DNA from: an uncultured Pelagibacteraceae bacterium
Lineage (GTDB): Bacteria > Pseudomonadota > Alphaproteobacteria > Pelagibacterales > Pelagibacteraceae
DNA length: 64,000 nucleotides
Assembly: GCA_902634885.1 (NCBI GenBank)
Contig: CACPLR010000002.1
Coordinates: 1 to 64,000 of the forward strand
Direction: 5' to 3'
In this document: positions 28,108-59,752 of the stretch, piece by piece
How positions within the stretch are numbered: position 1 is the first letter of the stretch
How the letters are laid out: each line of letters opens with the position of its first letter
The notes under the pieces: generated by a model
Told to the model about the DNA's origin: nothing
What the model saw: the letters and a program-made list of their open reading frames with translations, nothing else
Database searches by the model: none
Position numbers and translations under genes: made by a program

Positions 28108-28856
28108 TATATTACTTTAGCCTCATTTTTTAATTTTTGAACTAATTCTTCAACATTTGCGACTTTAATTCCCGCTTTTCTTTTAGGTGGTTCTTCAACC
28201 TTAATTTGCTCGATTCTTGGATTTGTATCAACACCTAAATCTGATGCATTTATTTGCTCTATTGGTTTTTTCTTTGCTTTCATAATATTCGGTAAAGATG
28301 CGTATCTAGGTTCATTTAATCTTAGATCACATGTTACAATTGCAGGAACATTAACTTCAATTGTTTCTAAACCTTCATCCACTTCTCTAGTGACTTCTAA
28401 AGATTTTTCTTTAACTTCAATTTTAGATGCAAATGTTGCTTGTGGCCAATTTAAAAGAGCAGCAAGCATCTGTCCTGTTTGATTGCAATCATCATCGATT
28501 GCTTGTTTACCCATAAAAACTAAATCGGGCTTTTCTTTTTCAACAACTTTTTGTAAAATTTTTGAAACTGCTAATGGTTCAATTACTCCGTCAACTTTAA
28601 CATGAATTCCTCTATCTGCTCCAACTGCTAAAGCTTTTCTAACTGTCTCTTGTGCCTTCTCCTCGCCTACTGTTATTGCAACTATTTCTGTTGCTTTCCC
28701 GGCCTCTTTTATTTTAACAGCCTCTTCAACTGCATTATCATCAGGTGGATTAGTTGACATTTTTACGTTATCAGTAACGACACCACTACCATCTTCTTTA
28801 ACTCTGATTTGAACGTTGTAATCAATTACTCTTTTTACAGCGACTAATATTTTCAT
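28107..28856 (-). CDS. etfB: Electron transfer flavoprotein beta subunit
   Basis: '[20 protein letters not shown]', '[18 protein letters not shown]', '[23 protein letters not shown]'. Confidence 0.96.
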
Positions 28857-31288
28857 TATGCTCTTAATAAATTATTTTCAGGATCATAAGGACTTTCTTC
28901 AAGAACAGTTGCTTCATGCATTTTTCCTAAAATATCTATTTTTAGTTTTTGTCCTACATTTCCAAGTTCAGGTTTCACCATTGCTAAAGCAATAGACTTA
29001 TCCAATCTAAATCCAAAGTCACCACCAGTTGCTCTTCCAATAACACTCCCATTTTCATAAACAGGGTTGTTACCTAAAACATCTGCATCTGTTGTATTGT
29101 GAACTTCCATTGTTATCAATTTATTATTAAAACCTTTTTCTCTCCATTGATTTAAAGCCTCTAAACCAATAAACTTTCCTTTATTTGGATGAACAAAACG
29201 ATCCAAACCACTTTCGTAAGGTGAATATTCAATAGACAGTTCTGTTCCAACCAATTTATAAGATTTTTCAACTCTTAAACTATTCATTGCTCTAATTCCG
29301 TATGGTTTGATACCTAGATCTTGTCCTGCTTCCATTAATTTATCAAATATATGATTTTGGTACTCAATTGGATGATGAAGTTCCCAGCCAAGTTCACCTA
29401 CAAAATTTACCCTCATTGCATTGACAGGTGCGTAACCAATATTAACCATTTTTGCACTTAACCATTTAAAATTTTCATTTGAAAAATCATCAGTAGAAAC
29501 TCTTTGCATTAACTCTCTTGCTTTTGGACCAGAAACCACAAGAACTCCATTGCTGTTTGTTAAATTTTCAAATTGTACTGATCCATCCTTTGGCATCCAT
29601 CTATGTATCCAGTCATGATCTAATCTTTGAAAGGCTCCTGCAGATACAAGATAAAAACTGTCTTCAGCCTCCCTCATAATTGTAAACTCAGAGTGTACTC
29701 CGCCTTTAGTATTTAATGCGTGACAAAGATTTATTCTTCCTATTTTTTTTGGAAGTTTATTTGCAACTAAATTATCTAAAAATTCTTCAGCTCCAGGGCC
29801 TTTAATTCTACATTTTGCAAAGGCAGTCATGTCTAATAAACCAACATTTTGCTTTACATTTTTACACTCTTTCTTGATTGCTTCAAACCACTTTGATCTT
29901 CTAAAAGACCAATCATCTTTTTGTTCCATGCCATCAGTTGCAAAAAAGTTTGGTCTTTCCCATCCAAATTTTTGACCAAATACAGCACCTAATTTTTTCA
30001 TTCTGTCATAACACGGTGCAGTTCTTAAAGGTCTAGCCGCACCTCTTTCCTCATCAGGATAATGAATAATGAATACATTTCTATAAGCTTCTTCATTCTT
30101 TTCTTTTAAATATGATTTAGAGCAATAATCACCATACCTTCTTGGTTCTACTCCAAGCATATCAATAGTTGGTTCACCATCTACAATCCATTCTGCTAAT
30201 TGCCAACCTGCTCCACCCGCTGCTGTTATTCCAAAACTATGACCTTCATTAATCCAGAAATTTTTTAATCCCCAAGCAGGTCCAACAATTGGGTTTCCAT
30301 CTGGGGTATAACATATTGCGCCGTTGTAAACTTTTTTTACACCAACTTCACCAAAAGCTGGAACTCTATGAATTGCACCTTCGATATGTGGAGCTAGTCT
30401 ATCTAAATCTTCCTGGAAAAGTTCATACTCAGAATCTTTTGAAGGTCCATCTACATAACAACATGGCGCACCATCTTCGTAAGGACCTAGAATTAATCCT
30501 CCTGCTTCTTCTCTCATATACCATCTGCTATCGCTATCTCTTAAAACTCCCATTTCTGGAAGTCCTTCTTTTTTTCTTTTTTGAATTTCAGGATGTGGTT
30601 CTGTAACAATATATTGATGTTCAACTGGTATAACTGGAATATCTAAACCCACCATCTTTCCAGTTTGCCTTGCAAAATTTCCAGAACAAGAAATAACATG
30701 TTCACATTCAATAGTTCCTTTATCCGTTTCAACAACCCAACCATCTTTAGATTGTTTCATTCCAACTACACTTGTGTTTCTGTAAATTTCTGCACCTCTA
30801 TTTCTTGCGCCTGTTGCTAAAGCTTGAGTTAGATCAGCAGGTTGAATATATCCATCTTCAGGGTGTTGTATTGCCCCAACTAAATCTGAAGTATTACACA
30901 AAGGCCAAATTTCTTTTACTTGATCTGGTGTTAAAAATTTTACATCAACTCCTATTGTTTGAGCAACTCCTGCATATTGATGATACTCATCCATTCTATC
31001 TTTTGTGCTTGCTAATCTGATATTTGAAACAACACTGAAACCTACGTTTTTTCCTGTTTCTTCCTCTAAAGTTTTATAAAGATTGACCGCATACTTATGT
31101 AATTGTCCAACTGAATAGCTCATGTTGAATAAAGGAAGTAGACCAGCTGCATGCCATGTTGAACCTGAAGTTAATTCTTTTCTCTCTATTAGGACTACGT
31201 CTGACCAACCTTTTTTTGCTAGATGGTAAAGAGCACTTACACCTACTACGCCACCACCAACAATAACAACTTTTGCTTTTGATTTCAT
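28856..31288 (-). CDS. Dimethylglycine dehydrogenase-like FAD/GcvT flavoprotein
   Basis: DAO domain '[46 protein letters not shown]' + C-terminal GcvT/folate-binding domain. Confidence 0.9.
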
Positions 31289-35060: not shown

Positions 35061-36296
35061 TTAAATATCTTCTAACGGATGATGGGACATCAATTCAAGT
35101 CCATTTTCTCCAACTAAATATTGCTGTTCAAGTTTTACACCCTCTTTGCCTCCAACTTTACCTATGTAACTTTCAACAGTAATGGTCATATTTTTAAGAA
35201 ATCTACCACTTATATCTCCCCCATCTGTTGGATATCTAATTGAAGGCCATTCATCACACAAACCTATTCCATGAACCATAACTGAATATCTATTGCCGTA
35301 ATATTCTTCAGGTAATTTCCATGATTTTTCTGAAAACTCTCTAAAAGATACATCCGCTTTGATAAGATTAGAATTATGATTAATTTGTTCTAAAGACATT
35401 GAATAAAGTGCTTTTTGATTCTTATTAAAATCGTTTCCACATACAAATGTTCTGGATATATCTGCGCAATATCCATAAGGACCAACCATATCTGTGTCAA
35501 AAGAAACAATCTCTCCTTGTTGAATTATCTTATTACTACTTTCTTGCATCCAAGGATTTGTTCTTTCACCTGATGATAAAATTCTACACTCAATCCATTC
35601 GCCACCATTTTCTATATTCGTTTTATGAAGTATTGACCATAACTCGTCCTCGGTCATACCTGCTTTAAGCTCTTCTCTCATTTTTCTTACACCTATTTCT
35701 GCAACTTCTATTGCAGCCCTCATGCATTTTAATTCCTCTGATGATTTTATAACTCTTGCTTGCTCCAATATAGATTTTGCATCTACTACTTCTATACCAC
35801 ATTTATTTAGTTCAGTAACTGCTGGACCATTTAAAACATCGATTGCAATTTTTTTGGATTTAAAAAACTTATTTGAAAGATCTTTAATCTCTGTAATCCA
35901 TTTTCTTAACTGTAAACTAGCCTGATCTCCATGAGAGAAATAATCCCAAGTAATTGCTGGTCTAATTTCATTAATTAAATTTAAATGTTCAGATAATTTT
36001 TCGCAATTAAAATATTCATAGAGAATTGTTGGTCCATCCACTGGAATAAAACAGTATCTAGAAAGATTGTGCATATTGAACACACTCATATTTACAGTGT
36101 CTAATGCATAACGTACATTGACTGGGTCAAATAAAATACACGCTTCTAAATTTTTTTTTTCTAATTCTTTTTTTACTCTTTCTAAACGATAAGATCTTAA
36201 TTTATCAAAGTCAATTTCATCTTCTCTAATTCTTTTTTTAGAGAGAAAGTTTGTAAAAGTTTTATATTCTGGATTTATTTTTCTACTAAATTTCAT
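35061..36296 (-). CDS. dddP: M24-peptidase-fold DMSP lyase DddP-like protein
   Basis: 'ILFDPVNVRYALDTVNMSVFNMHN', 'NGGEWIECRILSSGERTNPWMQE', 'SFDTDMVGPYGYCADISR', 'MVHGIGLCDEWPSIRYP', close to DddP signatures I recall from roseobacters. Confidence 0.75.
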   Translation of the reverse strand: MKFSRKINPEYKTFTNFLSKKRIREDEIDFDKLRSYRLERVKKELEKKNLEACILFDPVNVRYALDTVNMSVFNMHNLSRYCFIPVDGPTILYEYFNCEKLSEHLNLINEIRPAITWDYFSHGDQASLQLRKWITEIKDLSNKFFKSKKIAIDVLNGPAVTELNKCGIEVVDAKSILEQARVIKSSEELKCMRAAIEVAEIGVRKMREELKAGMTEDELWSILHKTNIENGGEWIECRILSSGERTNPWMQESSNKIIQQGEIVSFDTDMVGPYGYCADISRTFVCGNDFNKNQKALYSMSLEQINHNSNLIKADVSFREFSEKSWKLPEEYYGNRYSVMVHGIGLCDEWPSIRYPTDGGDISGRFLKNMTITVESYIGKVGGKEGVKLEQQYLVGENGLELMSHHPLEDI

Positions 36297-37471
36297 TAAA
36301 CTATATTTGTTACGACCCATTTATGGAAATGATGTGTAGGGTTATCCATTACAGGAGAAAAATTTCCTCCGTTATAAACACTTGAATTTCTACCTATTTG
36401 CATTCCTTGTATAATATCAACATCCTCTTTTTGTATATCTTCCCAAAGTTTAAAATTTTGTTTTCTCAAAGATTTATATTTTTTTGAATTTGCCGCATCA
36501 CCACCTACGTAATATATTTCCATATGCTCCAAAGTTAAATCGTTACTTTTTGGCTCTAACCAATATGCATAAAAATGATCTTTATGAATACCAAGCATAA
36601 CATTTGGGAATAATGCAACGTATTCTGCTATATTTTGCTTATTTTTGGGCCATTTTGGAAAACATGGAAATTTCTCTTTTCCTTTTAGTCTTGGATTATA
36701 AACAACAGTTCCTTGGCCTGCAAAACGATTTGGCAACCCTTGTATGTGGTAATGATCCTCAATTTTAGAATAAGAATTTAAACCAGGGTGAACCCATGGG
36801 AGATGATAACTTTCACAATAATTTTCAATTGCAAACTTCCAATTACACTTTGCCTCTAATTTAAAATAACCATAATCATTTGAATGTTTGATCATATCTC
36901 TATCAGAATTTTTCCAAAATTTACTCCATCTATCACTTAAAGGTTTTATGTATTTATCAAAAGGCATTTCATTACCGCTAATATTAACCATAATTAAATC
37001 TAACCAAATATAAGATCTTATTTCTTTTAGATTACTCTTTGATTTATTAAATTTTGGATGAGCGTGTTTATTCATACCACCAATGTGGGGTGTTGATATA
37101 AGCTCCCCATCAAAATTATATGACCATGAATGATAAGGGCACCTAATAACATTTCTAATTTTTCCTTCTTTATGAACAAGTTTTACTCCTCTATGACTAC
37201 AGATATTATGAAAAACTTTTATTTTATTTTGTTTATTTCTAACTATTAATAAGGGTAAATCTAACAAATCATAAGGTTTGGCGTCACCTATGTTTGGAAG
37301 TGAACTTGCAACACCAATCACAACCCATTTATCTTCAAAAAGTTTTTTTCTCTCTATTAAGGTATAGTCTTTATTTGTATAACACTCATTAGGCAAACCA
37401 TGAGCTTTTGAAATAGGTTTAGTTACAACATCTAATTTTTTTTTGTCTATAATATTGTATAATTCAGACAT
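36296..37471 (-). CDS. Rieske non-heme iron oxygenase alpha subunit
   Basis: Rieske 'CSHRGVKLVHKEGKIRNVIRCPYHSW' (CxH..CxxH); mononuclear Fe site 'ENYCESYHLPWVH'. Confidence 0.9.
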   Translation of the reverse strand: MSELYNIIDKKKLDVVTKPISKAHGLPNECYTNKDYTLIERKKLFEDKWVVIGVASSLPNIGDAKPYDLLDLPLLIVRNKQNKIKVFHNICSHRGVKLVHKEGKIRNVIRCPYHSWSYNFDGELISTPHIGGMNKHAHPKFNKSKSNLKEIRSYIWLDLIMVNISGNEMPFDKYIKPLSDRWSKFWKNSDRDMIKHSNDYGYFKLEAKCNWKFAIENYCESYHLPWVHPGLNSYSKIEDHYHIQGLPNRFAGQGTVVYNPRLKGKEKFPCFPKWPKNKQNIAEYVALFPNVMLGIHKDHFYAYWLEPKSNDLTLEHMEIYYVGGDAANSKKYKSLRKQNFKLWEDIQKEDVDIIQGMQIGRNSSVYNGGNFSPVMDNPTHHFHKWVVTNIV

Positions 37472-37473
37472 AA

Positions 37474-38100
37474 TTAAATGACTTCATAAAGCCCTAACCA
37501 TGCATTAACATCTTTGCTTGCAATATAATTAGATTTAAAGAACTCGATCTCACGCCATTTGTTATTATTGTTTAATTCATTTATTTTTTTATCAAATCCA
37601 TATTCTTCATGAATACCCTCGTTTATTGTAAAGCAAATGTATCCTCCTGGTTTTGTAATTCTTATAAATTCATCCAGTGCAGGTGGTTTTACATGACCAA
37701 AAGTAAAAGTGCCAACGCAAAGAACTGCATCGTATGTATTATCTTCCTCTTCTATTTTTTTGTTTAAGTCTACTTGATCTAATTTTTTATACAGATTAGC
37801 TGGGACTAAATCTAATAATTTTCTTGAAAGGTCTGCACCGTAAAAATTTGTAAAACCATATTTTTTAAGTTCAACACCAACCAACCCTGTACCACAACCT
37901 GCATCATAAATTTTAGCATCTTTATTTTTTTCGTACTTAATAAAAACTTCAGAGGTTTCTTTAGGTCCAGTATAATTCCAATCAACCATATCTTGATCGT
38001 ATTTATTATCCTTTCCCCACTCATCATAGTATTCCATGACTTCATCTGTTTTTGTTAATTTATAAATTGGTACTTTGTTACCAACGTCTTTTTGTGCCAT
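37474..38100 (-). CDS. Class I SAM-dependent methyltransferase
   Basis: 'KIYDAGCGTGLVGVELKKYGFTNFYGADLS', 'YDAVLCVGTFTFGHV...ITKPGGYICFTI'. Confidence 0.87.
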   Translation of the reverse strand: MAQKDVGNKVPIYKLTKTDEVMEYYDEWGKDNKYDQDMVDWNYTGPKETSEVFIKYEKNKDAKIYDAGCGTGLVGVELKKYGFTNFYGADLSRKLLDLVPANLYKKLDQVDLNKKIEEEDNTYDAVLCVGTFTFGHVKPPALDEFIRITKPGGYICFTINEGIHEEYGFDKKINELNNNNKWREIEFFKSNYIASKDVNAWLGLYEVI

Positions 38101-40505
38101 TAGCTTCTCATTTTCTGTCCACTTGGATCATAAAGAGGTTCTTTAATTACCGAACAATTAAATAAATCTCCATTTATCTCAATTTGGATTTTATTTTCTG
38201 ATTTAATTTTATTCTGATCAATAAAAGTAAAAGCAACACTTTTATTTACGAAATGTGCAAACCCACCTGATGTTACATAGCCTATACTTTGATCTCCATT
38301 CATTACAGCTTCATTATTTGTTACATCAATATCATTTGTTTCAACAATTAATGGAGTAAGTTTGCTAGAACTATTTTCTGATTTGGCTTTTTCTTTTCCA
38401 ATAAAATCTTTATCCCAATTTATAAACATGTCCAAACCTGTTTGTTTTGCTGTAAAATCGGGCCTATAATCTAAAGTCCATGCCCCCCAATTTTTTTCCA
38501 ATCTCATTGACATTAGGGCTCTTCCTCCAAAGGGTTTAATATTAAACTCTCTTCCTGCATCCATTAACTCTTCATAAAGTTTTATTTGATAGTGTGGCGC
38601 AACATAAATTTCGTAACCAAGTTCACCTGTAAATGAAATTCGGTTTATTATTGCAGGTACGCCACCAACAAACATTCTTCGAGAGTCTCTGAATTTGAAT
38701 TTTTCATTGGAGACATCGTCTCTTACTATTTTTTCCAACACTTTTCTCGAATTTGGACCAGCTATAGATATGCCGTGAAATTCATCAGATCTATTTTTGT
38801 AATTAACATCAAATTTATCCAAGTGACTTTCAAACCAACGTCTATGCATTTCTTGCGCTGCACCAGATCCAAAAACCATAAATTCATTTTCATCAAAACA
38901 GGCAACTGTTAGGTCTCCACACAATTTTCCTCTATAAGACAACATTGGAGACAAGGATATTCTCCCAGGTTTTGGAAGTTTACCTGCCATTACGTGATCT
39001 AAAAATTTTCTTGCATCAGTTCCTTTAAATTCATGTTTTGAAAAATTAGCTACTTCTATTAAGCCTACATTCTCCCTTACATTAATAACTTCTCTCGAAA
39101 CATAATCATGTGACCTAGATCTTTTTATAGTTGGTTCCTCATGTGCATCTTCTTTATTATTTGCAAACCACAAAACATTTTCTAAACCAAAACTATCTCC
39201 CATAACTGCACCCTGATTTACAAATCTATCATAGAGAGCTGTCGTTTTTTGTTTTCTACCTTTAGGCAAGGTTTCATTTGGAAATGTCATTATGAATCTT
39301 CTCTCATAATTTTCAGATGATTTTATTGTTCCATATTGTGGTGAAGCGTAATCTCCAAATCTTGCAACATCCATTGCCCAAACATCTATCGATGGTTCTC
39401 CATCAATTATCCATTCAGCAATACATTTTCCAACTCCTCCTCCTTGACAAAATCCAGCCATAATACCTACAGCTACCCAGTAATTTTTCATACCTGGCAC
39501 AGGACCAATTAATGGAGATCCATCTGGTCCAAAAGTAAATGGTCCATTAACAATATTTTTTATTCCTGCTTTCTCTAATGCAGGCATTCTTTCAAAACCT
39601 ATTGCCAATCTATCTTCAATGTTATCTAACTTTGGTTCTAATAACTCATGGCCAAAATTCATTGGCGTTCCTTCAACTTTCCAAGGAGTTGATTTGGGTT
39701 CATATGTTCCAAGAAGCATTCCTTTTGCTTCTTGTCTAAAATAAATATTTCCTTCAAAGTCAGTACCTATTGGTAGTCTTTGATCACCCATTGCCTCTAT
39801 TTCTGGAATTGTCTCAGTAATCAAATAATGATGTTCCATTGGCTGAACTGGTAGATTTATTCCAGCAAGTTGACCCACTTCTCTTGCCCATAATCCTCCG
39901 GCGTTGATTACTATTTCAGCATTGATATTGCCCTTCTCGGTAATTACATCCCAAGTCCCATCTTCTTTTTGTTTTGTATCTTTAACCACAGTGTGAGTGA
40001 AATATTTTCCACCATGAACTTTTGCTGCTTTTGCAAAAGCGTAAGTTACTCCCGATGGATCAACTTCTCCATCAATTGGATCCCACAATGCTAAAAGATA
40101 TCTAGAAGGGTCAATTAATGGGTGTTTTTTTTTAACTTCCTCAAGAGATATAAATTCCTGATCTAAGCCCATATATCTTGCTTTCGATCTCTCTCTTTTT
40201 AAATAATCGGCCCAAACTTCATTTGATGCTAGATAAAATCCTCCACTAGGTTTGAAACCTACTGAATGACCAGATTCCTTCTCAATATCTTTATAAAGCC
40301 CAATTGTATAAGCCATCATTCTTGAAATGTTTGGATCTGAGGAAATTACGTGCACATTTCCTGCTGCATGCCAGGAAGAGCCAGATGTAAGCTCATTTCT
40401 TTCAAGAAGAATGCAATCCTTAAGACCAAATTTTGATAAATGATAAAGAATTGAGCAGCCAACAACACCACCACCAATGATAACTACTTTTGCATGATTT
40501 TGCAT
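38100..40505 (-). CDS. Sarcosine/dimethylglycine dehydrogenase-like FAD/GcvT flavoprotein
   Basis: 'VVIIGGGVVGCSILYHLSKFGLKDCILLERNELTSGSSWHAAGNVH' plus C-terminal GcvT domain. Confidence 0.9.
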   Translation of the reverse strand: MQNHAKVVIIGGGVVGCSILYHLSKFGLKDCILLERNELTSGSSWHAAGNVHVISSDPNISRMMAYTIGLYKDIEKESGHSVGFKPSGGFYLASNEVWADYLKRERSKARYMGLDQEFISLEEVKKKHPLIDPSRYLLALWDPIDGEVDPSGVTYAFAKAAKVHGGKYFTHTVVKDTKQKEDGTWDVITEKGNINAEIVINAGGLWAREVGQLAGINLPVQPMEHHYLITETIPEIEAMGDQRLPIGTDFEGNIYFRQEAKGMLLGTYEPKSTPWKVEGTPMNFGHELLEPKLDNIEDRLAIGFERMPALEKAGIKNIVNGPFTFGPDGSPLIGPVPGMKNYWVAVGIMAGFCQGGGVGKCIAEWIIDGEPSIDVWAMDVARFGDYASPQYGTIKSSENYERRFIMTFPNETLPKGRKQKTTALYDRFVNQGAVMGDSFGLENVLWFANNKEDAHEEPTIKRSRSHDYVSREVINVRENVGLIEVANFSKHEFKGTDARKFLDHVMAGKLPKPGRISLSPMLSYRGKLCGDLTVACFDENEFMVFGSGAAQEMHRRWFESHLDKFDVNYKNRSDEFHGISIAGPNSRKVLEKIVRDDVSNEKFKFRDSRRMFVGGVPAIINRISFTGELGYEIYVAPHYQIKLYEELMDAGREFNIKPFGGRALMSMRLEKNWGAWTLDYRPDFTAKQTGLDMFINWDKDFIGKEKAKSENSSSKLTPLIVETNDIDVTNNEAVMNGDQSIGYVTSGGFAHFVNKSVAFTFIDQNKIKSENKIQIEINGDLFNCSVIKEPLYDPSGQKMRS

Positions 40506-40506
40506 T

Positions 40507-41547
40507 TTAGTATTTTATTTCTTTATTTACATCCTTCAATGACTTGTCTGTCCCATGGTGAAAGTGCTTACTCATATCTGGCATGTATTTCATCGCTATT
40601 GGTTTTTTACCAACAGCAACAGCCATTTCTCTCACATGATGAGCTTCAGCACCACAACAGATACCTATTAAATTAATTTTTTCTTTTAGACATTCTTTTG
40701 CAAATTCAGCCATTTCAAATCTGTTACAAAATAAATTGTCTAAAGCTACAGGAAAAGCATTTCCTCCCGGAATGCAATCACATCCATGGTCTGTTTGATT
40801 TAAAAATCCTGGTTCTTCCTCTGTTGTCCTATAAGGAACGGGTAACCCTGCAACATGGCATGAAACTTTTTTTCTAACTTGTTTTAAAAGTTTCATTGTC
40901 ATTTTTGGACCTCTGTAACAATTTAAACCTACAACATCTGCTCCGAGATCCTCGACTATTTTACATGCGTCTTCAGCGGTATGACCATCTCTTGTCAAAT
41001 CACCACGAGGTATTGCATAATTGGCAACTGCAATCAAACCTTCATCCTTAATTGCTTTTAAAGCTATTTTCATTTCATCTACCCAATTGATTGTTTCTGC
41101 AACTACAAAGTCAACTCCTGCTTCTTTTGCCCAAAGCACCTGTTCTTCGTACATTCTTTGACATTCTTTAAAAGAATTCTTATCTTTTGGATCAAAAATA
41201 TTTGTATTAGCTACATCACCACAAACCATTAAGTCTAAATCTTTAAATTCATTTGCAGCATCCTTTGCTATTTGAAGAGCATTTTTTTGCATTGGTTCAA
41301 GTAAATGTTCTTTTCCTATAATTCTAAGTTTTTCTCTATGTCCATAATAAGTGAATGCTTGAACAACATCTGAGCCAGCTCTAATAAATTCTCTATGCAA
41401 TTGTGTAACTACATCTGGATGTTCTAGCACCACCTCAGGAACAAAAGGTCCGGCAGAAAGGTATCCTCTTCTTTCCATTGCAAATAAATATCCTTCTGCA
41501 AAGATAACTGGACCAGCGTCTAATCTTGATATTAAATCTTTTTTCAT
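40507..41547 (-). CDS. bhmT: Betaine-homocysteine S-methyltransferase-type protein
   Basis: 'VIFAEGYLFAMERRGYLSAGPFVPEVVLEHPDVVTQLHREFIRAGSDVVQAFTYYGHREKL', Zn motif 'GICCGAEAHHVREMA'. Confidence 0.9.
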   Translation of the reverse strand: MKKDLISRLDAGPVIFAEGYLFAMERRGYLSAGPFVPEVVLEHPDVVTQLHREFIRAGSDVVQAFTYYGHREKLRIIGKEHLLEPMQKNALQIAKDAANEFKDLDLMVCGDVANTNIFDPKDKNSFKECQRMYEEQVLWAKEAGVDFVVAETINWVDEMKIALKAIKDEGLIAVANYAIPRGDLTRDGHTAEDACKIVEDLGADVVGLNCYRGPKMTMKLLKQVRKKVSCHVAGLPVPYRTTEEEPGFLNQTDHGCDCIPGGNAFPVALDNLFCNRFEMAEFAKECLKEKINLIGICCGAEAHHVREMAVAVGKKPIAMKYMPDMSKHFHHGTDKSLKDVNKEIKY

Positions 41548-41630
41548 TTTCCTCCCTTAGTTTTATTTTTTTTAAATTTGAGGAAAAAATTTAATAACTG
41601 TCTCTTATAATTGATTGTTGAAAAACAGTT
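41548..41630 (-). promoter_or_regulatory. Candidate SAM-II/SAM-V-like pseudoknot riboswitch in bhmT leader
   Basis: On - strand: hairpin TTAAATTT-TTTCCTC-AAATTTAA; loop TTTCCTC is complementary to GAGGAAA in the SD region CTAAGGGAGGAAAATG; upstream stem AACTGT/ACAGTT. Confidence 0.55.
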
Positions 41631-41816
41631 TTGCAATTTAAATTGAAATAAAATCCTAAAAAAAAATTTTTACTGATTAATTTCATTACCAATAATATTA
41701 TTTAAAAAAAATAGTGTGATAAAGACATTTTTACTGCAACTTTTAGTTGAAAGAAGTTTGCAATTTGATTGGGTATATGTTCTCTTTAAGGATAATTAAT
41801 TAATTAGGAGAGTATA

Positions 41817-42827
41817 ATGAATATTAAAAAAGTAATTCTCACAATCGCTGTTATTTTCGGACTGTCAAGTTTTGGAAATGTTGCAAATGCGAAATGTGGG
41901 GACATAACTATCGCTAATATGAACTGGGCTTCTGCAAACTTTATGGCTGAAGTTGATAAAATCATATTAGAAGAGGGATATGGATGCAGTGTGGAATTGG
42001 TGCCGGGTGCAACTATGCCAACTTTTACATCTATGCAAGAAAAAGGTGAGCCAGATGTTGCTCCAGAATTTTGGGCAAATGCTGCAATCGTTGCTTTAAA
42101 TAAAGCAGTAGACGAAGGTAAAATGCATACGCTTAATAAAGCACCAATTACTGGTTTAGGTGAAGGTTGGTGGGTATTACCTGCAACTTTAGAAAAGCAT
42201 CCAGAACTAACAACTGCTGATGCAATTTTAAAAAGACCAGACTTATTTCCACATCCAGAAGATCCATCAAAAGGTGGTTTTCATATCTGCCCTCCAGGTT
42301 GGAACTGTGAATTAAGTAACAGAAACCACTTTAGAGCATGGGGTATGGAAGAAAAAGGTTGGGCTATTGTTGAAACAGGTTCTGCTGCAGGACTTGACGG
42401 ATCAATAGCAAAAGCTGCTGAAAGAGGTGAGAACTGGTTTGGATACTATTGGTCTCCAACAGCTTTAATTGGTAAATATAACATGCAAGCTGTAGACATG
42501 GGAGCATGGGGTGGAAAAGATAACTGGGACAAATGTATAGTTTTACCAGAGCAAGAATGTGCTGACCCTAAAAAAACTTCATGGGTAAAATCTGAGGTAT
42601 TTACAATTACGACTGATAATTTCAAAAAAACAGCTGGTAAAGATGGTATGAAATATCTTGAGAACAGAACTTACCCTGGTCCGGTTATGAATGGAATGTT
42701 AGTTTGGATGGGTGAAAACCAAGCAGAAGGTGCTGATGCTGCAATTGAATTCTTAAAAACACAAGAAGATGTGTGGACTAAGTGGGTTTCAAGTTCAGCT
42801 GCTAAAAAAATAAAAAAAGCACTTTAA
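41817..42827 (+). CDS. Betaine-type ABC transporter substrate-binding protein (ProX/OpuAC)
   Basis: Signal peptide, 'ITIANMNWASANFMAEVDKIILEEGYGCSVELVPGATMPTFTSMQEKGEPDVAPEFW'. Confidence 0.9.
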   Translation: MNIKKVILTIAVIFGLSSFGNVANAKCGDITIANMNWASANFMAEVDKIILEEGYGCSVELVPGATMPTFTSMQEKGEPDVAPEFWANAAIVALNKAVDEGKMHTLNKAPITGLGEGWWVLPATLEKHPELTTADAILKRPDLFPHPEDPSKGGFHICPPGWNCELSNRNHFRAWGMEEKGWAIVETGSAAGLDGSIAKAAERGENWFGYYWSPTALIGKYNMQAVDMGAWGGKDNWDKCIVLPEQECADPKKTSWVKSEVFTITTDNFKKTAGKDGMKYLENRTYPGPVMNGMLVWMGENQAEGADAAIEFLKTQEDVWTKWVSSSAAKKIKKAL

Positions 42828-42841
42828 TTCAATAAAATTTT

Positions 42842-42863
42842 GAACCCGTTGAAAAACGGGTTC
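42842..42863 (+). terminator. Intercistronic hairpin between SBP and permease
   Basis: GAACCCGTT-GAAA-AACGGGTTC, perfect 9-bp stem with GAAA tetraloop. Confidence 0.8.
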
Positions 42864-42883
42864 AAATCCAATAAAATATTATA

Positions 42884-43768
42884 ATGGATTTCTTTAGCAA
42901 AATTCCGGTAATGGATAGAACCGCATTGCGAGAGTTAAAGAAAGGTATAGATTTAAGTTTTAAAGATTTTTCAAGAGCATATGGAGACGGCATAGAATCT
43001 TTTTTTGATCCATTACTTTATTTTTTAATTTGGTTAGAAAAATTATTAGTAAATAGTCCATGGCCAATAGTAATTGGAGTTTTTGGATTATTGGCATGGG
43101 TCGGTTCAAGAAGCATTAAGCTTGTAATTGGAACAGTCGTTTGTTTTATTGTAATTGGCTATTTTGGCATGTGGAAGAATTGCATGGCGACAGTGGCCAT
43201 AATATCAGTATCTACACTTGTATGTATTGTTGTTGGAATTCCAATAGGAGTTCTTATGTCTAAGTCAAGTAGAGCTGAGAAAGCTATATTACCAGTTCTA
43301 GATATGATGCAAACGATACCGAGTTTTGTATATTTAATTCCCATAATAATGTTACTTGGAATTGGTAAAGTGCCTGGTCTATTAGCTGTATGTATTTATG
43401 CTCTACCCCCAATTGTAAGATTAACCAATCTTGGTATCAGAGAGGTTGATAAAGAAACTCTAGAAGCTAGTGAGGCATTTGGTGCAACTCCATTACAGAA
43501 ATTGAAATCTGTTCAGATACCCCTATCACTTCCAACAATTTTCGCAGGTGTAAACCAAACGATCATGATGGCTTTGGCTATGGTTGTGATAGCATCAATG
43601 ATTGGGGTTAAAGGCCTAGGGGTCCCTATTTTACAGGCTATTTCAAACCAGTATTTGGCTCTTGGAATGATGAATGGTTTAGCAATTGTTGCCCTAGCAA
43701 TTATTTTCGATAGAGTTACACAGCAGTACGGGAAGCGGATCCAAAAACACAGAGGTCAAAAAAAATAA
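42884..43768 (+). CDS. Betaine-type ABC transporter permease (ProW-like)
   Basis: 'MATVAIISVSTLVCIVVGIPIGVLMSKS', 'MMQTIPSFVYLIPIIMLLGIGKVPG', 'EASEAFGATPLQKLKSVQIPLSLPTIFAGVNQTIMMALAMVVIASMIG'. Confidence 0.92.
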   Translation: MDFFSKIPVMDRTALRELKKGIDLSFKDFSRAYGDGIESFFDPLLYFLIWLEKLLVNSPWPIVIGVFGLLAWVGSRSIKLVIGTVVCFIVIGYFGMWKNCMATVAIISVSTLVCIVVGIPIGVLMSKSSRAEKAILPVLDMMQTIPSFVYLIPIIMLLGIGKVPGLLAVCIYALPPIVRLTNLGIREVDKETLEASEAFGATPLQKLKSVQIPLSLPTIFAGVNQTIMMALAMVVIASMIGVKGLGVPILQAISNQYLALGMMNGLAIVALAIIFDRVTQQYGKRIQKHRGQKK

Positions 43769-43834
43769 TAAGCCCAGTTTGGATATCGATTTTTCTAGAC
43801 TCATATTTCAAAATAAATAAAGATCCAAAAAATA

Positions 43835-44563
43835 ATGAAATTTTCTTTAGAAATTGGACCACAATCGACTCTTGAAAACTTGCCGCCAGTTAAAGATGTT
43901 TACATAACTATGTTGCCAGGAGGTGACTATAAAGAAACTGCTGCAAAGTCAGGAGAGTTAGTTGAAAAAGGTTTTAATCCTGTTCCACATTTTCCAGCAA
44001 GATCAATCAATGATGATAATGAATTAAAAGATTATGTAAAAAGATGCAAGGATTTAGGAGTTAAACAAGCTTTAGTGATCGGTGGAGGTAGAGAGCCAAT
44101 AGGAAAATTTGATAGCTCATATCAAATGCTAGAAACAGGATTTTTTGATGGAATTAAAATAGGAATAGCGGGACATCCTGAGGGTAGTCCTGATATATCC
44201 GATACAGATTTAGAAAAAGCAATGATAGATAAGAAGCCTTATGCTGATTATATAGTGACGCAATGGTTATTAGACAGTCAGCCTATTATTGATTTCATTT
44301 CTAAACAAACAGTACCAGTGCATGTAGGAATTACTGGGCCAATGAAAATATCTAGCTTGATAAAATTTGCTAATATTGTAGGGGCAAAAAATTCCATAAA
44401 CTTTCTTAAATCTAATTTTAGTAAGGCGTTAGATTTATTAAAACCTAAAGACCCTAATGATTTAATTGGGAAAGTTAAATCGCATACTGATTATTTTCAC
44501 ATTTATACATTCGGCGGCTTGAAGGAAACAAACAAGTGGTTGAAGGAGAATAACTATGTCTAA
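43835..44563 (+). CDS. Methylenetetrahydrofolate reductase-like (MetF family, short)
   Basis: 'FSLEIGPQ', 'YITMLPGGDYKETAAKSGELVEKGFNPVPHFPARSI', 'LVIGGG', 'GIAGHPEGSPDI', 'TQWLLDSQPIIDF'. Confidence 0.75.
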   Translation: MKFSLEIGPQSTLENLPPVKDVYITMLPGGDYKETAAKSGELVEKGFNPVPHFPARSINDDNELKDYVKRCKDLGVKQALVIGGGREPIGKFDSSYQMLETGFFDGIKIGIAGHPEGSPDISDTDLEKAMIDKKPYADYIVTQWLLDSQPIIDFISKQTVPVHVGITGPMKISSLIKFANIVGAKNSINFLKSNFSKALDLLKPKDPNDLIGKVKSHTDYFHIYTFGGLKETNKWLKENNYV

Positions 44564-45914
44564 GGAGTTTGACTATAGTAAAGTAAGACACGTAACATCA
44601 GTAGATCAGTCTGATAGAAACGTACCTTACAATTTAAGACAAAGCGGTCCAACAAAAGTTGAAATGCTAATTTCAACAAGGGTAAGAAAATCACCATACT
44701 GGCATTTATCAATGAAAGCTGGATGTTGGAGAGCAACAGTTTACAATCGTATTTATCATCCAAGAGGATATGTAAAACCTGAGGACGGTGGAGCGATGGT
44801 TGAGTACGATGCAATTGTTAATCACGTTACAATGTGGAACGTTGCAGTTGAAAGACAAATAAGGGTAAAGGGTCCTGATGCGGAAAAATTTGTGGACTAT
44901 GTAATCACTAGAGATGCAACTAAAATTTCACCTATGAGAGCAAGGTATGTAATTCTTTGTAATGCATATGGTGGAGTATTAAATGATCCAATTCTTCTTA
45001 GAATTTCTAAAGATGAGTTTTGGTTTAGTTTGTCTGATAGTGATATTGGTCTTTATCTTCAAGGTGTAAATGCAGATGAAAGATTTAATGTAAACATTGA
45101 TGAAATTGATGTGAGCCCTGTTCAAATACAAGGTCCTAAATCAAAAGCATTAATGAAAGATTTATGTGGTGATCATGTAGATTTTGACAACATGCCTTTC
45201 TATGGTCTTGCAGAGGCTAAAGTTGGAGGAAGAAGTGTGGTAATTTCACAATCTGGTTTTTCAGGTGAAGCTGGTTTTGAAATATATTTAAGAGAATCTA
45301 CTTTATATGCTGAAGATATGTGGAATGCTGTTCTAGAAGCAGGTAAAAAACATAACTTGATGGTTATTGCTCCAGCACACCATAGAAGAATTCAAGCAGG
45401 AATTCTTTCTTGGGGTCAGGATATGGATAACCAACATAATCCATTTCAGTGTAACTTGGGTTATCAGGTTTCGTTATCAGGAAAAGGCGAGTGGGATAAA
45501 AAAGGAGATTATGTGGGTAAAAAAGCTTTGGAGAAAATGAAAGCTGATCTTAAAGCAGGTCATAAACCCTATAAACTTCAATTGGTTGGTCTTGAACTTG
45601 GAGGAAAACCAATTGAAGAATATGCTCCAGATTTTTGGTTAATTTCAGGTGAAAACGGTGGAGAGCCAGTAGGTTTTATAACTTCTCCTTGGTATCACCC
45701 AGAAAAGAAACAAAATATTGCAATGGGCTATGTGCCATTTGATGGAACTTTGAACGCAAATGGCTTCCCTAAAGGTAAAGCTGGCTCAAAATACAAAGTG
45801 CATTTGCCTGAAAAATACTCTGATACTCCAGGGCAACCAGTCGATGCAGTTGTAGTAGATATTCCATTTACAGAGTCTTACAACGCAAATACAAGAGAAG
45901 TTGTAAAAGGATAA
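44556..45914 (+). CDS. GcvT-fold aminomethyltransferase/demethylase (DmdA/LigM-like)
   Basis: 'YDAIVNHVTMWNVAVERQIRVKGPDAEKFVDYVITRDATKISPMRARYVILCNAYGGVLNDPILLRI', 'GFSGEAGFEIYL'. Confidence 0.8.
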   Translation: MSKEFDYSKVRHVTSVDQSDRNVPYNLRQSGPTKVEMLISTRVRKSPYWHLSMKAGCWRATVYNRIYHPRGYVKPEDGGAMVEYDAIVNHVTMWNVAVERQIRVKGPDAEKFVDYVITRDATKISPMRARYVILCNAYGGVLNDPILLRISKDEFWFSLSDSDIGLYLQGVNADERFNVNIDEIDVSPVQIQGPKSKALMKDLCGDHVDFDNMPFYGLAEAKVGGRSVVISQSGFSGEAGFEIYLRESTLYAEDMWNAVLEAGKKHNLMVIAPAHHRRIQAGILSWGQDMDNQHNPFQCNLGYQVSLSGKGEWDKKGDYVGKKALEKMKADLKAGHKPYKLQLVGLELGGKPIEEYAPDFWLISGENGGEPVGFITSPWYHPEKKQNIAMGYVPFDGTLNANGFPKGKAGSKYKVHLPEKYSDTPGQPVDAVVVDIPFTESYNANTREVVKG

Positions 45915-45921
45915 AATTTAT

Positions 45922-45950
45922 TTTAGGGGGGTAAAATTTCCCCCCCTAAA
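45922..45950 (+). terminator. G6/C6 hairpin 3' of the GcvT-like gene
   Basis: TTTAGGGGGG-TAAAATTTC-CCCCCCTAAA, perfect 10-bp stem; no poly-T tail. Confidence 0.7.
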
Positions 45951-45952
45951 TT

Positions 45953-46060
45953 ATGACCAAAACTTTCTTAATTGTTGTTTGCATATTTATAGCCATTGGA
46001 TTAATACTTTTTCCATTAATAGTTTCTTATAAAGCACAAAAAAAAGACCAAAAAAAATAA
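45953..46060 (+). CDS. 35-aa single-TM small protein, missing from ORF track
   Basis: MTKTFLIVVCIFIAIGLILFPLIVSYKAQKKDQKK; stop overlaps ATG of the next gene (TAATG). Confidence 0.55.
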   Translation: MTKTFLIVVCIFIAIGLILFPLIVSYKAQKKDQKK

Positions 46061-46605
46061 TGTTTGCACAATTTTTAGATATAGTTTTCAGATCATTAAA
46101 ATTAGATAGAAATTTATATAAAGATCAAAGATACTTTGGTGAAGCTGCAATTTATTTTGCAGGTTTAATTATGATTTTAGATGGTGTTGCTGGAGCTTTT
46201 GCAGCAAATACTATTGTTAAAACTTCAATTGGTATTTCAGGTCTTACTGCTATTTTAACTTGGTTAGTATGGTCGATATTCATTTACGTTATAGGAGTTA
46301 AAATTTTTTCAGATAAAGAGAGCAAAATACCTTTTAAGAAAGTTTTAATTGCTGTCGGATATGCTCATGCACCAGGTTTACTTAGATTTTTTGCAGTCAC
46401 ACCTGATCTTGTTATTTCAATTATATTTTTAACCCAGTTTTGGATTTTTGCTTCTCTAATAATATCAACAAAACAAATATTAAATATCAAATCTAGTTTT
46501 AAAGCTTTTGGAATTATATTTTTGTCTTTTTTGATTATTGCTTTCTTGTCTGTTTCGTTCGTAATGAGTAGAATGAACGCTCTTCCGATAAGCAATATAA
46601 GCTAA
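46060..46605 (+). CDS. Yip1-domain-like integral membrane protein
   Basis: 181 aa, five hydrophobic segments, 'VGYAHAPGLLRFFAV' typical of YIP1 family. Confidence 0.7.
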   Translation: MFAQFLDIVFRSLKLDRNLYKDQRYFGEAAIYFAGLIMILDGVAGAFAANTIVKTSIGISGLTAILTWLVWSIFIYVIGVKIFSDKESKIPFKKVLIAVGYAHAPGLLRFFAVTPDLVISIIFLTQFWIFASLIISTKQILNIKSSFKAFGIIFLSFLIIAFLSVSFVMSRMNALPISNIS

Positions 46606-55905: not shown

Positions 55906-56490
55906 TTAAACTGACTTAAAACCAAATTCTAAACAAGCATCAGTCAGTGAATGATGCAAAGACTCTCCAAAACTTCTTAAAGCTAGAACTCTAATAACCT
56001 GAGGATTATCAGATATAAAATCTAATGTTATGGTTATTGCGTGGAAAACTGAATTAGAACAGTCCCCCTTTCCTAATTCATTAATATTTAATGGGGATCC
56101 TTTTTTAATTACCTCTCTTGCAAGATTGCCTTCTACCTCAATTATAGTTCTTGAATGAGAAAGATCAGTAATTGCAAAATCTTTATCAGTAAAATCATTT
56201 TTAAAGATATCAAAAATATTTTTTTTATCTGATATAACTAGCCAATTATCTGGTCCCATCCACAATAGTCTTGTACTAGAGTTATGTTTTACTTTTAATG
56301 GATCAGGTAATCTTAAACCATCTAAGTTCATTTTTGAAACATCAATTGTAGAATTTTTATACTTAACAATTTGATAAATTATCAAATTTTTAACTTCTTT
56401 TAATTTAAGCAAATCATTCTCATTTTTATTTTCATAATCACCAAATGTTCCATGTTTATGAATATTTTGTAATGATGAAATGTATGTCAT
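55906..56490 (-). CDS. soxG: Sarcosine oxidase gamma subunit
   Basis: Position 3' of soxA; 'LLWMGPDNWLVIS...AITDLSHSRTIIEVEGNLAREVIKKGSPLN'. Confidence 0.87.
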   Translation of the reverse strand: MTYISSLQNIHKHGTFGDYENKNENDLLKLKEVKNLIIYQIVKYKNSTIDVSKMNLDGLRLPDPLKVKHNSSTRLLWMGPDNWLVISDKKNIFDIFKNDFTDKDFAITDLSHSRTIIEVEGNLAREVIKKGSPLNINELGKGDCSNSVFHAITITLDFISDNPQVIRVLALRSFGESLHHSLTDACLEFGFKSV

Positions 56491-59483
56491 GATCGAACTC
56501 TTTTTCCTTCTGGGTCAACATAATGAGATGAAATTATTTCAACCTCTATTGAAGTATTTTTAAGAGGCGAAACTGCAAATAATTTTTTTCCAATCATATT
56601 CTTTCCATCATTTACGATTGCAAGAGAAAATGGATTATTATTTTCTACACTCCAACAAGATGATGAGACATGGCCTAGTTTAGGATTTGGAAGTTTTGCC
56701 TTTTCGTTTTCAACTAAATGGGATCCCTCTGGTATACTGGACTTTCTATCTGTTGGAACTAATCCAACTATTTTTTGCCTATTTTCTAATACGAATGCAT
56801 CTTTACCTAAAGAATTTTTTCCAATGAAATCTTTTTTCTTTGAAACTAATCCATCTAATGAAACATCTTGTGGAATTGTTCTTCCATCTAATTCTGGGCC
56901 GGCAACGTGCCCCATTTCAATTCTTAAAGTTGATAGGGCTTCAGTTCCATATGGTTGATTGTTAAATTCTCGACCAATTTCCATCATTTTTTCCCACATA
57001 AACAAACCATAATTTGACTCAACATTAACCTCGTAAGCAAGCTCGCCTGAAAATGAAATTCTAAAAATTCTTGCTGGCACACCAAATAAATTACTTTCGA
57101 TATAACCCATAAAAGGTAAAGCTTCATTAGAAACATCTAAATCTGGAAATAATTTTGATAACATGTCTCTTGATTTAGGACCAGCTATTGCTGCGCCTGC
57201 CCATTGTTCTGTTGTAGATACAACATTTACATTTAATTCTGGCCATACAATTTGAAGATAATATTCGAGATGAGATAATACATTTGCAGCTTGTGCTGTT
57301 GTCGTAGTCATATGATAATGATTTTCAGAAATCCTTGTTGTAGTACCATCGTCCATTATCATGCCATCTTCTCTCAACATCACTCCATATCTTGCCTTAC
57401 CAACTGGGAGTTTTAACCAAGCATTTGTGTACACTCTATTTAAAAATTCAGCGGCATCTGGGCCTTTAATATCTATTTTACCAAGTGTAGTTACATCACA
57501 TATTCCAACATTCTCTCTTACATTTTTTGCTTCACGCTTTGAAGCCTCTAACAAAGTTTCATTTCCTTTTTTGTAATATCTAGGTCTTTTCCATGCACCT
57601 GCATCAACAAACACTGCATTATTTTTTTCATGCCACTCGTGCATTGGTGTTTTTCTGGTTGGCATAAATTCCATACCCACTTCTCTTCCAACAATTGTAC
57701 CAATAGTAATTGGAGTAAATGGTGGTCTAAAAGTTGTGTGCCCTACTTCAGGTACAATTTTATTTTCAATATTAGAGACCATTTGAAGACCATTAAGATT
57801 ACTTGTTCTTCCTTGATCAGTGGCCATGCCTAATGTTGTATACCTTTTTACGTGCTCGATGGATCTATAACCTTCTCTTAAAGCTATCTCTATATCAGAA
57901 ACTGCAACATCATTTTGAAAATCTACAAATCTTTTTGGATTTTCATTTTTAGGAAGTGGCATACACCAAAATTTATCATGCACACTGTATTTAGTTTCAG
58001 TTACTGTAGGTATTTTGTTCTCATTATTTTTATCAGTTATTTTGCTTGATAATTCTGAACCGGTTTTAAAACCACTTTCAATAGTTTCTTGAAGTGTAAA
58101 ACTTCCATTTGCAGCACCTATTGTTTTTTCTTTTTGTTTAGATTTATCTGGAATAAAAGCATCTATTTTTTCATCAAATTTTAATTTATTTCCAGATTGC
58201 GATGCCAAATGAACAGTTGGCGTCCAAAAACCTGAAACACATATACAATCACACTTAATTGTTTCAGTACTTTCAAAAGATTTTTTATCTTTAGTTAATT
58301 TACCTATTTTTGCTGATTTTACTTTTTTGTATCCATTTGCAACAATTACACCGTAAGAAAATTTTATTTGTATACCTTTATTTTTTGCTTCTTGTACGAC
58401 CTCGGAATCGTGCTCTTCTCTTGTATCTAATATTATTGGTTCAACGTTATTTTTCTTAAATTCAAAAGCAGTTTCATAAGCACTATCGTTATTGGTAAAT
58501 ATAATTGGTTTTCTTCCAACTAAAACGCCATATACTTTCATATATTCTTTAGCTGCTGATGATAAAACTACGCCAGGTGTATCATTGTTTCCAAAAACAA
58601 TTGGTCGTTCTATTGATCCTGTTGATAAAATAGTCTCTTTAGCTCTTATATACCAAAGTCTTTGTCTTGGAGTATATTTTGATTTATTTGATAAGTGGTC
58701 GCCTACTCTTTCAAACATAACCATCATATTATGATCGTAATAACCAAATACTTGAGATCTATTTTTTAATGTCACGTTTGGCATTTTTTTTAGCTCAGAT
58801 ATGATTTTTTCAGACCAGTCTTTTCCGGACATATTATCTATACTAACGTCATCGGTTAATAAGGTTCCGCCATATCTTGGTTTATCTTCAGCAAGAATTA
58901 CTTTTGCTCCATTTTTTGCTGCAGCATAAGCACTTGCTAACCCGGAGGGTCCTGAGCCAGTTACTAATAGATCGCAATATTCAAATTTATGTTCATATCG
59001 TTCCTTATCTTTTTCTAAAGAAGCAACACCTAATCCAGCTGCTTTACGAATAAATGGTTCATAAACTTTATACCAAAAACTTTTTGGCCACATAAATGTT
59101 TTATAATAAAACCCTGCTGGGAAAAATCTTTTTAGAAAATTGTTTATCGCTCCAATATCAAATTCAACTGATGGCCAACAATTTTGGCTAGTTGCCGACA
59201 ATCCCTCTACTAATTCAATTTCAGTTGCATTTATGTTTGGTTCTGAATGTCCATTGATTGTAACTTGAAGTTTGGCATTTGGTTCATCAACTCCTGCTCC
59301 AATAAAACCTCTTGGTCTATGATATTTAAAACTTCTTCCTACTAAGTGAACTCCATTTGCAAGTAATGCCGAAGCTAGAGTATCTCCCTCATAACCTTGA
59401 TATGATTTTCCATTAAAGTTAAATGTAATTACTTTATCTCTATTTATGAGCCCAATATTATTTAACCTGTGTGATTGTCTCAT
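56487..59483 (-). CDS. soxA: Sarcosine oxidase alpha subunit
   Basis: 'FNFNGKSYQGYEGDTLASALLANGVHLVGRSFKYHRPRGFIGAGVDEPNAKLQV', FAD/NAD domain, GcvT C-terminus. Confidence 0.96.
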   Translation of the reverse strand: MRQSHRLNNIGLINRDKVITFNFNGKSYQGYEGDTLASALLANGVHLVGRSFKYHRPRGFIGAGVDEPNAKLQVTINGHSEPNINATEIELVEGLSATSQNCWPSVEFDIGAINNFLKRFFPAGFYYKTFMWPKSFWYKVYEPFIRKAAGLGVASLEKDKERYEHKFEYCDLLVTGSGPSGLASAYAAAKNGAKVILAEDKPRYGGTLLTDDVSIDNMSGKDWSEKIISELKKMPNVTLKNRSQVFGYYDHNMMVMFERVGDHLSNKSKYTPRQRLWYIRAKETILSTGSIERPIVFGNNDTPGVVLSSAAKEYMKVYGVLVGRKPIIFTNNDSAYETAFEFKKNNVEPIILDTREEHDSEVVQEAKNKGIQIKFSYGVIVANGYKKVKSAKIGKLTKDKKSFESTETIKCDCICVSGFWTPTVHLASQSGNKLKFDEKIDAFIPDKSKQKEKTIGAANGSFTLQETIESGFKTGSELSSKITDKNNENKIPTVTETKYSVHDKFWCMPLPKNENPKRFVDFQNDVAVSDIEIALREGYRSIEHVKRYTTLGMATDQGRTSNLNGLQMVSNIENKIVPEVGHTTFRPPFTPITIGTIVGREVGMEFMPTRKTPMHEWHEKNNAVFVDAGAWKRPRYYKKGNETLLEASKREAKNVRENVGICDVTTLGKIDIKGPDAAEFLNRVYTNAWLKLPVGKARYGVMLREDGMIMDDGTTTRISENHYHMTTTTAQAANVLSHLEYYLQIVWPELNVNVVSTTEQWAGAAIAGPKSRDMLSKLFPDLDVSNEALPFMGYIESNLFGVPARIFRISFSGELAYEVNVESNYGLFMWEKMMEIGREFNNQPYGTEALSTLRIEMGHVAGPELDGRTIPQDVSLDGLVSKKKDFIGKNSLGKDAFVLENRQKIVGLVPTDRKSSIPEGSHLVENEKAKLPNPKLGHVSSSCWSVENNNPFSLAIVNDGKNMIGKKLFAVSPLKNTSIEVEIISSHYVDPEGKRVRS

Positions 59484-59749
59484 ACTATTTCTTCACTCAT
59501 TTTAGCTGTTTTAAATATTTCATGCGTTGCAGTATCTCTTTGAACTTTAAACCATTGCCTACATCCTGAGATATGATGCCAAAGTTCAATGTGTTTTCCT
59601 CTTGGACTTTTTCTCATATAAACAAAATTATCCCATTCCTCTTTTGAAACTTCTTTGTTAATTTCTGGTCTCTTAACTGTTGCGTCTCCACCATAAGCAA
59701 ACTCTTTTTGCGCTCTTAATCCACAGAATGGACAATTAATATGTAGCAT
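59480..59749 (-). CDS. soxD: Sarcosine oxidase delta subunit
   Basis: 'INCPFCGLRAQKEFAYGGDATVKRP...LWHHISGCRQWFKVQRDTATHEI'. Confidence 0.95.
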   Translation of the reverse strand: MLHINCPFCGLRAQKEFAYGGDATVKRPEINKEVSKEEWDNFVYMRKSPRGKHIELWHHISGCRQWFKVQRDTATHEIFKTAKMSEEIV

Positions 59750-59752
59750 AAA

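Follow-up and report, generated by a model that had tools for sequence, protein, structure and literature searches.

The DNA analyzed here, referred to as the window, is a 64-kb stretch (positions 1 to 64,000) of contig CACPLR010000002.1 from an uncultured Pelagibacteraceae bacterium (assembly GCA_902634885.1), whose 1.17-Mb genome is 79% complete. The small genome, its low GC content and a DmdA much like the one in Pelagibacter ubique suggest a bacterium of the SAR11 type. It contains four plus-strand genes in series, the last of which, gcvT*, is our main subject. These genes encode an OpuAC-type, DmpX-like substrate-binding protein (SBP; 41817-42827; PF04069, 161 bits; PDB 7YLE, 209 bits), a ProW-type ATP-binding cassette (ABC) permease (42884-43768; PF00528; best NCBIfam match ProW at 271 bits, under cut-off), a short, 242-residue MetF-type methylenetetrahydrofolate reductase (43835-44563) and a 452-residue GcvT-fold methyltransferase with GCV_T and GCV_T_C domains (gcvT*, 44556-45914), a predicted tetrahydrofolate (THF)-dependent glycine betaine demethylase. 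A first-pass annotation had named the same four genes; the open reading frames (ORFs) agree with it, and the Pfam and NCBIfam results are in line with it. The gcvT* frame overlaps metF by 8 nt. Since the gcvT* ORF is conserved across the genus, the order and beyond (identity is 83-95% among members of the genus, about 85% for a second family within the order and 62-72% beyond the order), chance is ruled out as its origin.

A conserved metF-gcvT* pair beside a variable transporter

The first-pass annotation described the four genes as one transporter and demethylase cassette, and only the core of that cassette is conserved. In every SAR11 locus read, metF lies directly before gcvT*. Among the loci read, the SBP-permease pair precedes them in the window and at seven more sites in the genus; in the second family it adjoins them at none of the five loci examined. 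This variable adjacency rules out a conserved four-gene operon: the conserved unit is metF-gcvT* only, with the transporter as a variable neighbor found in a minority of genus-mates. The short MetF scores 20.4 bits on PF02219, against a cut-off of 24, and matches PDB 7XG9 over nearly its full length (118 bits, E 4e-33), a structure that we take to be the MetF of the LigM pathway in Sphingobium SYK-6. Directly behind gcvT* across the genus, though not in the second SAR11 family, lies a gene for a 181-residue membrane protein (46060-46605, plus strand) that has no family match. A search for an upstream riboswitch gave no Rfam hit in the window, nor any at E <= 0.1 within 41400-46200.

Judging from second-family loci that carry the pair at the gcvT* identity given above, metF and gcvT* are almost certainly the orthologues of SAR11_1264 and SAR11_1265 of Pelagibacter. 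There, metF (SAR11_1264) adjoins AMT (SAR11_1265, 'putative aminomethyltransferase') near dmdA; the substrate was given as unknown, with speculation about methylmercaptopropionate (MMPA) (Sun et al. 2011, PMC3160333). Both are listed among genes whose expression departs strongly from that in exponential phase (PMC5069961). We found no biochemical test of either gene in the literature.

The only PDB match of the SBP, 7YLE, is DmpX, which binds dimethylsulfoniopropionate (DMSP). Like its counterpart in the DMSP ABC transporter DmpXWV (Li et al. 2023, PMC10030565), the SBP has the aromatic cage and Tyr200, and it keeps seven of the eight DMSP-pocket residues (W35, T64, W84, E113, W152, A153, Y200 and W202); it differs in the replacement of Ala153 by Asn (N163) and in that its cluster encodes no ATPase. 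As the first-pass annotation had reported, there is no ProV-type ATPase in the window, where only a generic ABC ATPase occurs (17027-17776, minus strand; 29% identical). A search for a separate proV gene located one at contig positions 76059-77084, 31 kb beyond the cassette (TIGR01186, 345.9 bits; cut-off 326.6), with a TmoX-like SBP and a trimethylamine N-oxide (TMAO) demethylase as neighbors. Because this ProV sits in that company and none sits in the cassette, the missing ATPase is encoded elsewhere or within the portion of the genome that the assembly lacks. The stretch around this proV (genome C2:73902-81589), which encodes the TmoX-like SBP, the ProV ATPase, a 717-residue permease and the TMAO demethylase (1114 bits, above cut-off), is on sequence grounds a cluster for taking up and demethylating TMAO. 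Apart from the SBP of the cassette, the genome has two clear OpuAC proteins, neither of them DmpX-like, and one of these is the TmoX-like protein.

Family, fold and phylogeny of gcvT*

The first-pass annotation considered the length and C-terminus of gcvT* to be more LigM-like than DmdA-like, and this proved wrong. Among NCBIfam models, gcvT* reaches 241 bits for DmdA, 129-153 for GcvT and 38 for LigM, and all of these scores fall under the curated cut-offs (410 bits for the DmdA equivalog NF009133, 236-300 for the GcvT models and 580-800 for LigM/DesA). An orthologue from another alphaproteobacterium scores 275 bits on the DmdA model, again under the cut-off, and the LigM/DesA models return 38-46 bits for gcvT*. 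Its best solved relative is the DmdA of P. ubique (SAR11_0246, PDB 3TFH) at 157 bits, with LigM at 34. The AlphaFold model of gcvT* (pLDDT 86.8, pTM 0.87) gives a predicted fold that superimposes on DmdA with a TMt of 0.93 and on LigM with about 0.60. Sequence and fold together thus rule out a LigM-like identity. The folate-site Glu and Tyr are retained, and gcvT*, as modeled, has the fold and the folate site of the GcvT-fold THF-dependent methyltransferases.

What gcvT* has in common with DmdA is the GcvT fold, the THF acceptor residues and a predicted redox-neutral transfer yielding 5-methyl-THF. The two are 27-40% identical and have different gene neighbors, and gcvT* carries a conserved N-terminal extension of about 30 residues as well as a conserved C-terminal one. 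In a maximum-likelihood tree with some long branches elsewhere, gcvT* forms one clade (support 100/100) that takes in SAR11, other Alphaproteobacteria, Gammaproteobacteria, Actinomycetota and others, while canonical DmdA and further SAR11 paralogues form a separate clade beside it (99/96); gcvT* therefore falls inside no characterized clade. The Trp that is key for DMSP (W197 in P. ubique, W171 in the alignment; PMC7487153) is present in DmdA and the other paralogues and is replaced by Phe235 in 23/23 gcvT* rows. Several other aromatic residues, including W49, W58, W286, W361 and W379, are invariant and specific to the clade. Model score, tree and the Phe substitution rule out a canonical DmdA identity and uphold the earlier caution that DMSP should not be assumed.

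The genome encodes a separate GcvT-type protein, and gcvT* does not pass the equivalog or subfamily models for the glycine-cleavage T protein. A canonical DmdA is likewise present elsewhere in the genome (557 bits; cut-off 410), with dmdC/dmdB-like genes upstream, so that DMSP demethylation is already covered. There is also a third DmdA-like paralogue (L101:10267-11403; genome C1:155384-156382, minus strand), a partial match whose 399 bits lie just below the DmdA cut-off, which brings the DmdA-related proteins of this 1.2-Mb genome to at least three.

Genomic company of gcvT*

The window holds further genes of betaine and one-carbon metabolism. On the opposite strand and divergent from the SBP gene lie genes for a human-BHMT-like betaine-homocysteine methyltransferase (40507-41547, minus strand; PDB 1LT7, 158 bits; PF02574) and for an FAD and GcvT protein resembling dimethylglycine dehydrogenase (DMGDH; 38100-40505, minus strand; human DMGDH, PDB 5L46, 590 bits). 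A second such protein, similar to dimethylglycine (DMG) and sarcosine dehydrogenases, is encoded at 28856-31288 (minus strand; DMGDH, PDB 4P9S, 659 bits). Farther along is soxBDAG, a heterotetrameric sarcosine-oxidase-type operon (55906-61009, minus strand) made up of soxB (59753-61009; 664 bits, above cut-off), soxD (about 59489-59749, located by tblastn), soxA (56487-59483; 1312 bits, above cut-off) and soxG (55906-56490, assigned by operon place and length). It is followed by fhs for formate-THF ligase (61161-62840, plus strand; NF010030, 912 bits; cut-off 652). BHMT, DMGDH, soxBDAG and fhs, all in the window around the cassette, count in favor of a role in betaine use. The gene run on the BHMT-DMGDH side also includes an S-adenosylmethionine methyltransferase gene and one for a Rieske oxygenase (36296-37471, minus strand; 118 bits on the GbcA model, cut-off 670), the latter kept in many genus-mates.

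A scan of named genomes, many of them metagenome-assembled genomes (MAGs), with the family alignment recovered 80 gcvT* loci in Pseudomonadota, Actinomycetota, Gemmatimonadota, Acidobacteriota, Nitrospinota and Latescibacterota. Within 5 kb of gcvT*, the 67 named loci with at least 3 kb on either side have a DMGDH-like (DMG oxidase or dehydrogenase) gene in 53 cases, metF in 43, formate-THF ligase in 20, soxA in 19 and GbdR in 15. HIMB59-type genomes carry a single run, soxB-soxD-soxA-soxG-DMG oxidase-metF-gcvT*, in which the 824-residue DMG oxidase matches that of Arthrobacter (1PJ5) from end to end (732 bits). Marinobacter genomes have gcvT*-metF-fhs facing GbdR (501 bits for the one tested; cut-off 480), with a serine dehydratase at several loci and a DMGDH-like gene beyond. 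The series in Arthrobacter castelli reads glyA, folD, gcvT*, fhs and a gene for an FTCD_C protein, and fhs lies within 5 kb in 5/5 second-family SAR11 loci. At two loci (L154:9913-13923 and L155:3900-7820), metF and formate-THF ligase share one open frame, possibly a natural fusion behind gcvT*; candidate gcvT*-metF-fhs fusions at these loci and at L146 were ruled out as regards gcvT*, the long ORF being in another frame and having no GCV_T domain by Pfam. The family is thus genomically associated with DMG and sarcosine demethylation and with betaine regulation.

Co-occurrence was assessed in 385 alphaproteobacterial genomes, of which 19 have gcvT* and 149 have soxB. All 19 gcvT* genomes have soxB (hypergeometric 7e-9), and the MttB/MtgB family occurs in 2 of them compared with 78 of the 130 soxB genomes that have no gcvT* (Fisher 4e-5); these P values are optimistic, as the genomes are phylogenetically non-independent, and many are MAGs or single-amplified genomes. 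When 25 named gcvT* genomes were tested, GbcA was above cut-off in 4 and MttB was present in 1. The Arthrobacter castelli genome has no GbcA, no MttB and no protein of the homocysteine-methyltransferase family PF02574. MttB and a true GbcA are both absent from Rhodospira trueperi and Tamilnaduibacter salinus, whose PF02574 proteins are MetH-sized only. In these three, gcvT* is the sole nameable candidate for betaine demethylation.

A proposed role in glycine betaine demethylation

We think it likely that gcvT* is a glycine betaine:THF methyltransferase, that is, a THF-dependent demethylase, and that MetF oxidizes the resulting methyl-THF. In the proposed route, gcvT* would pass one methyl group straight from glycine betaine to THF, as DmdA does with DMSP, giving DMG and 5-methyl-THF. 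The adjacent MetF would run oxidatively, converting 5-methyl-THF to 5,10-methylene-THF, which could feed THF-linked one-carbon oxidation by FolD and Fhs. DMG and then sarcosine would be demethylated to glycine by the DMGDH-type and SoxBDAG enzymes of the same window. The DmpX-like SBP and the permease of this genome probably import a betaine or DMSP, with an ATPase encoded elsewhere.

The reasoning behind this proposal is as follows. DMG oxidase and sarcosine oxidase (SoxBDAG) yield methylene-THF directly and need no MetF; the invariant coupling of gcvT* to metF in SAR11 loci points to a redox-neutral methyl transfer that makes methyl-THF, as in DmdA-type enzymes. The conversion of betaine to DMG is the sole step absent from the HIMB59-type operon, which argues that gcvT* fills it. 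Moreover, a demethylation that gives DMG, precedes the oxidation of DMG and sarcosine and is under GbdR control is that of glycine betaine, making betaine the most likely substrate. A THF-dependent demethylase served by an adjacent MetF that oxidizes 5-methyl-THF, as the first-pass annotation envisaged, is consistent with family, fold and the conserved pairing of the genes; glycine betaine can now be suggested as its substrate, while the LigM affinity and the four-gene unit that came with that interpretation have found no support.

Several points weigh against a betaine substrate, beyond the non-independence of the genomes compared. The nearest solved relative of the SBP binds DMSP, not betaine, and we know of no proven case in which a quaternary amine donates a methyl group straight to THF. 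DMGDH linkage is looser in SAR11 than elsewhere (7/15 loci in one family, f1, and 1/5 in the second, f2). A BHMT-like protein is also found in SAR11 and HIMB59 genomes that have gcvT* and could perform the same step, in which case gcvT* would be redundant there; GbcA is also found in Halomonas relatives. Finally, no soxB scores over the cut-off in Marinobacter genomes G808, G814, G817, G818 and G819 or in Tamilnaduibacter G815, and such Marinobacter-type genomes leave the use of sarcosine unexplained. The Marinobacter gcvT* loci of genomes lacking soxB still have GbdR and a DMGDH-like gene.

Alternatively, gcvT* might demethylate another quaternary donor onto THF, such as carnitine, a proline betaine or some other N-methylated osmolyte, with MetF acting as proposed. 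The clade-specific aromatics would suit any trimethylammonium group and the transporter family accepts several substrates, yet gcvT* keeps company specifically with DMG oxidase, SoxBDAG, GbdR and serine dehydratase, which favors a path from betaine to glycine, and no carnitine or aromatic genes were recognized in the annotated neighboring clusters; we regard this as unlikely. Slightly less probable still is that gcvT* demethylates DMSP or its product MMPA, the cassette serving to take up and demethylate DMSP. The pocket of the SBP, DmdA as the nearest characterized enzyme and the 2011 proposal of MMPA for SAR11_1265 (PMC3160333) all speak for it. Set against them are the canonical DmdA and dmdC/dmdB-like genes elsewhere in the genome, the low DmdA-model scores and the Phe in place of the DMSP-specific Trp, the Actinomycetota and Marinobacter relatives of gcvT*, whose neighbors are DMG oxidase, sox and GbdR genes, and a transporter that adjoins only a minority of loci. 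O-demethylation of methoxy-aromatics, as by LigM and DesA, is highly improbable, since a total length close to that of LigM and the match of the short MetF to 7XG9, its closest PDB relative, are outweighed by the model scores and fold comparison given above and no aromatic catabolic genes were recognized nearby.

A 2025 study called the first step of bacterial glycine betaine demethylation poorly resolved; it described GbcAB, MtgBCD and Bhmt as betaine demethylases and credited SAR11 with Bhmt alone (Mausz et al. 2025, PMC12478193). The proposed gcvT* route resembles that of MtgBCD and MetF2 in Ruegeria pomeroyi (PMC12478193), where the betaine methyl is likewise passed to THF in the end and oxidized by a dedicated MetF. 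MtgBCD differs in being a corrinoid-dependent, three-protein system that is absent from SAR11 and seldom shares an alphaproteobacterial genome with gcvT*. BHMT, like the proposed gcvT* reaction, removes the first betaine methyl without cobalamin and is present in the window, but it belongs to an unrelated family, uses homocysteine as acceptor and yields methionine, so that its flux is tied to methionine demand. The Rieske monooxygenase GbcAB would share the same metabolic step in GbdR-regulated organisms, except that it depends on O2 and releases formaldehyde. In the open literature we found no paper that assigns the gcvT* family to betaine or describes a THF-dependent betaine demethylase; subscription papers, for example on the Arthrobacter DMG and sarcosine genes, lay outside the search.

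SAR11 oxidizes glycine betaine, a major marine osmolyte, to CO2, although betaine use through BHMT depends on homocysteine being supplied. With a little less confidence than we place in the reaction itself, we propose that gcvT* adds a fourth family to the enzymes by which aerobic bacteria carry out the first demethylation of glycine betaine, one that needs neither cobalamin nor oxygen nor homocysteine and is distributed across SAR11 and at least six phyla. If so, the DmdA-type fold would act on quaternary amines, the SAR11_1264/1265 pair, open since 2011, would be explained, and metagenomes could be screened for gcvT* as a marker gene of betaine turnover. A THF-dependent demethylase beside MetF would also decouple betaine use in SAR11 from homocysteine supply, and these bacteria could then burn betaine for energy and glycine free of the limit set by methionine demand.

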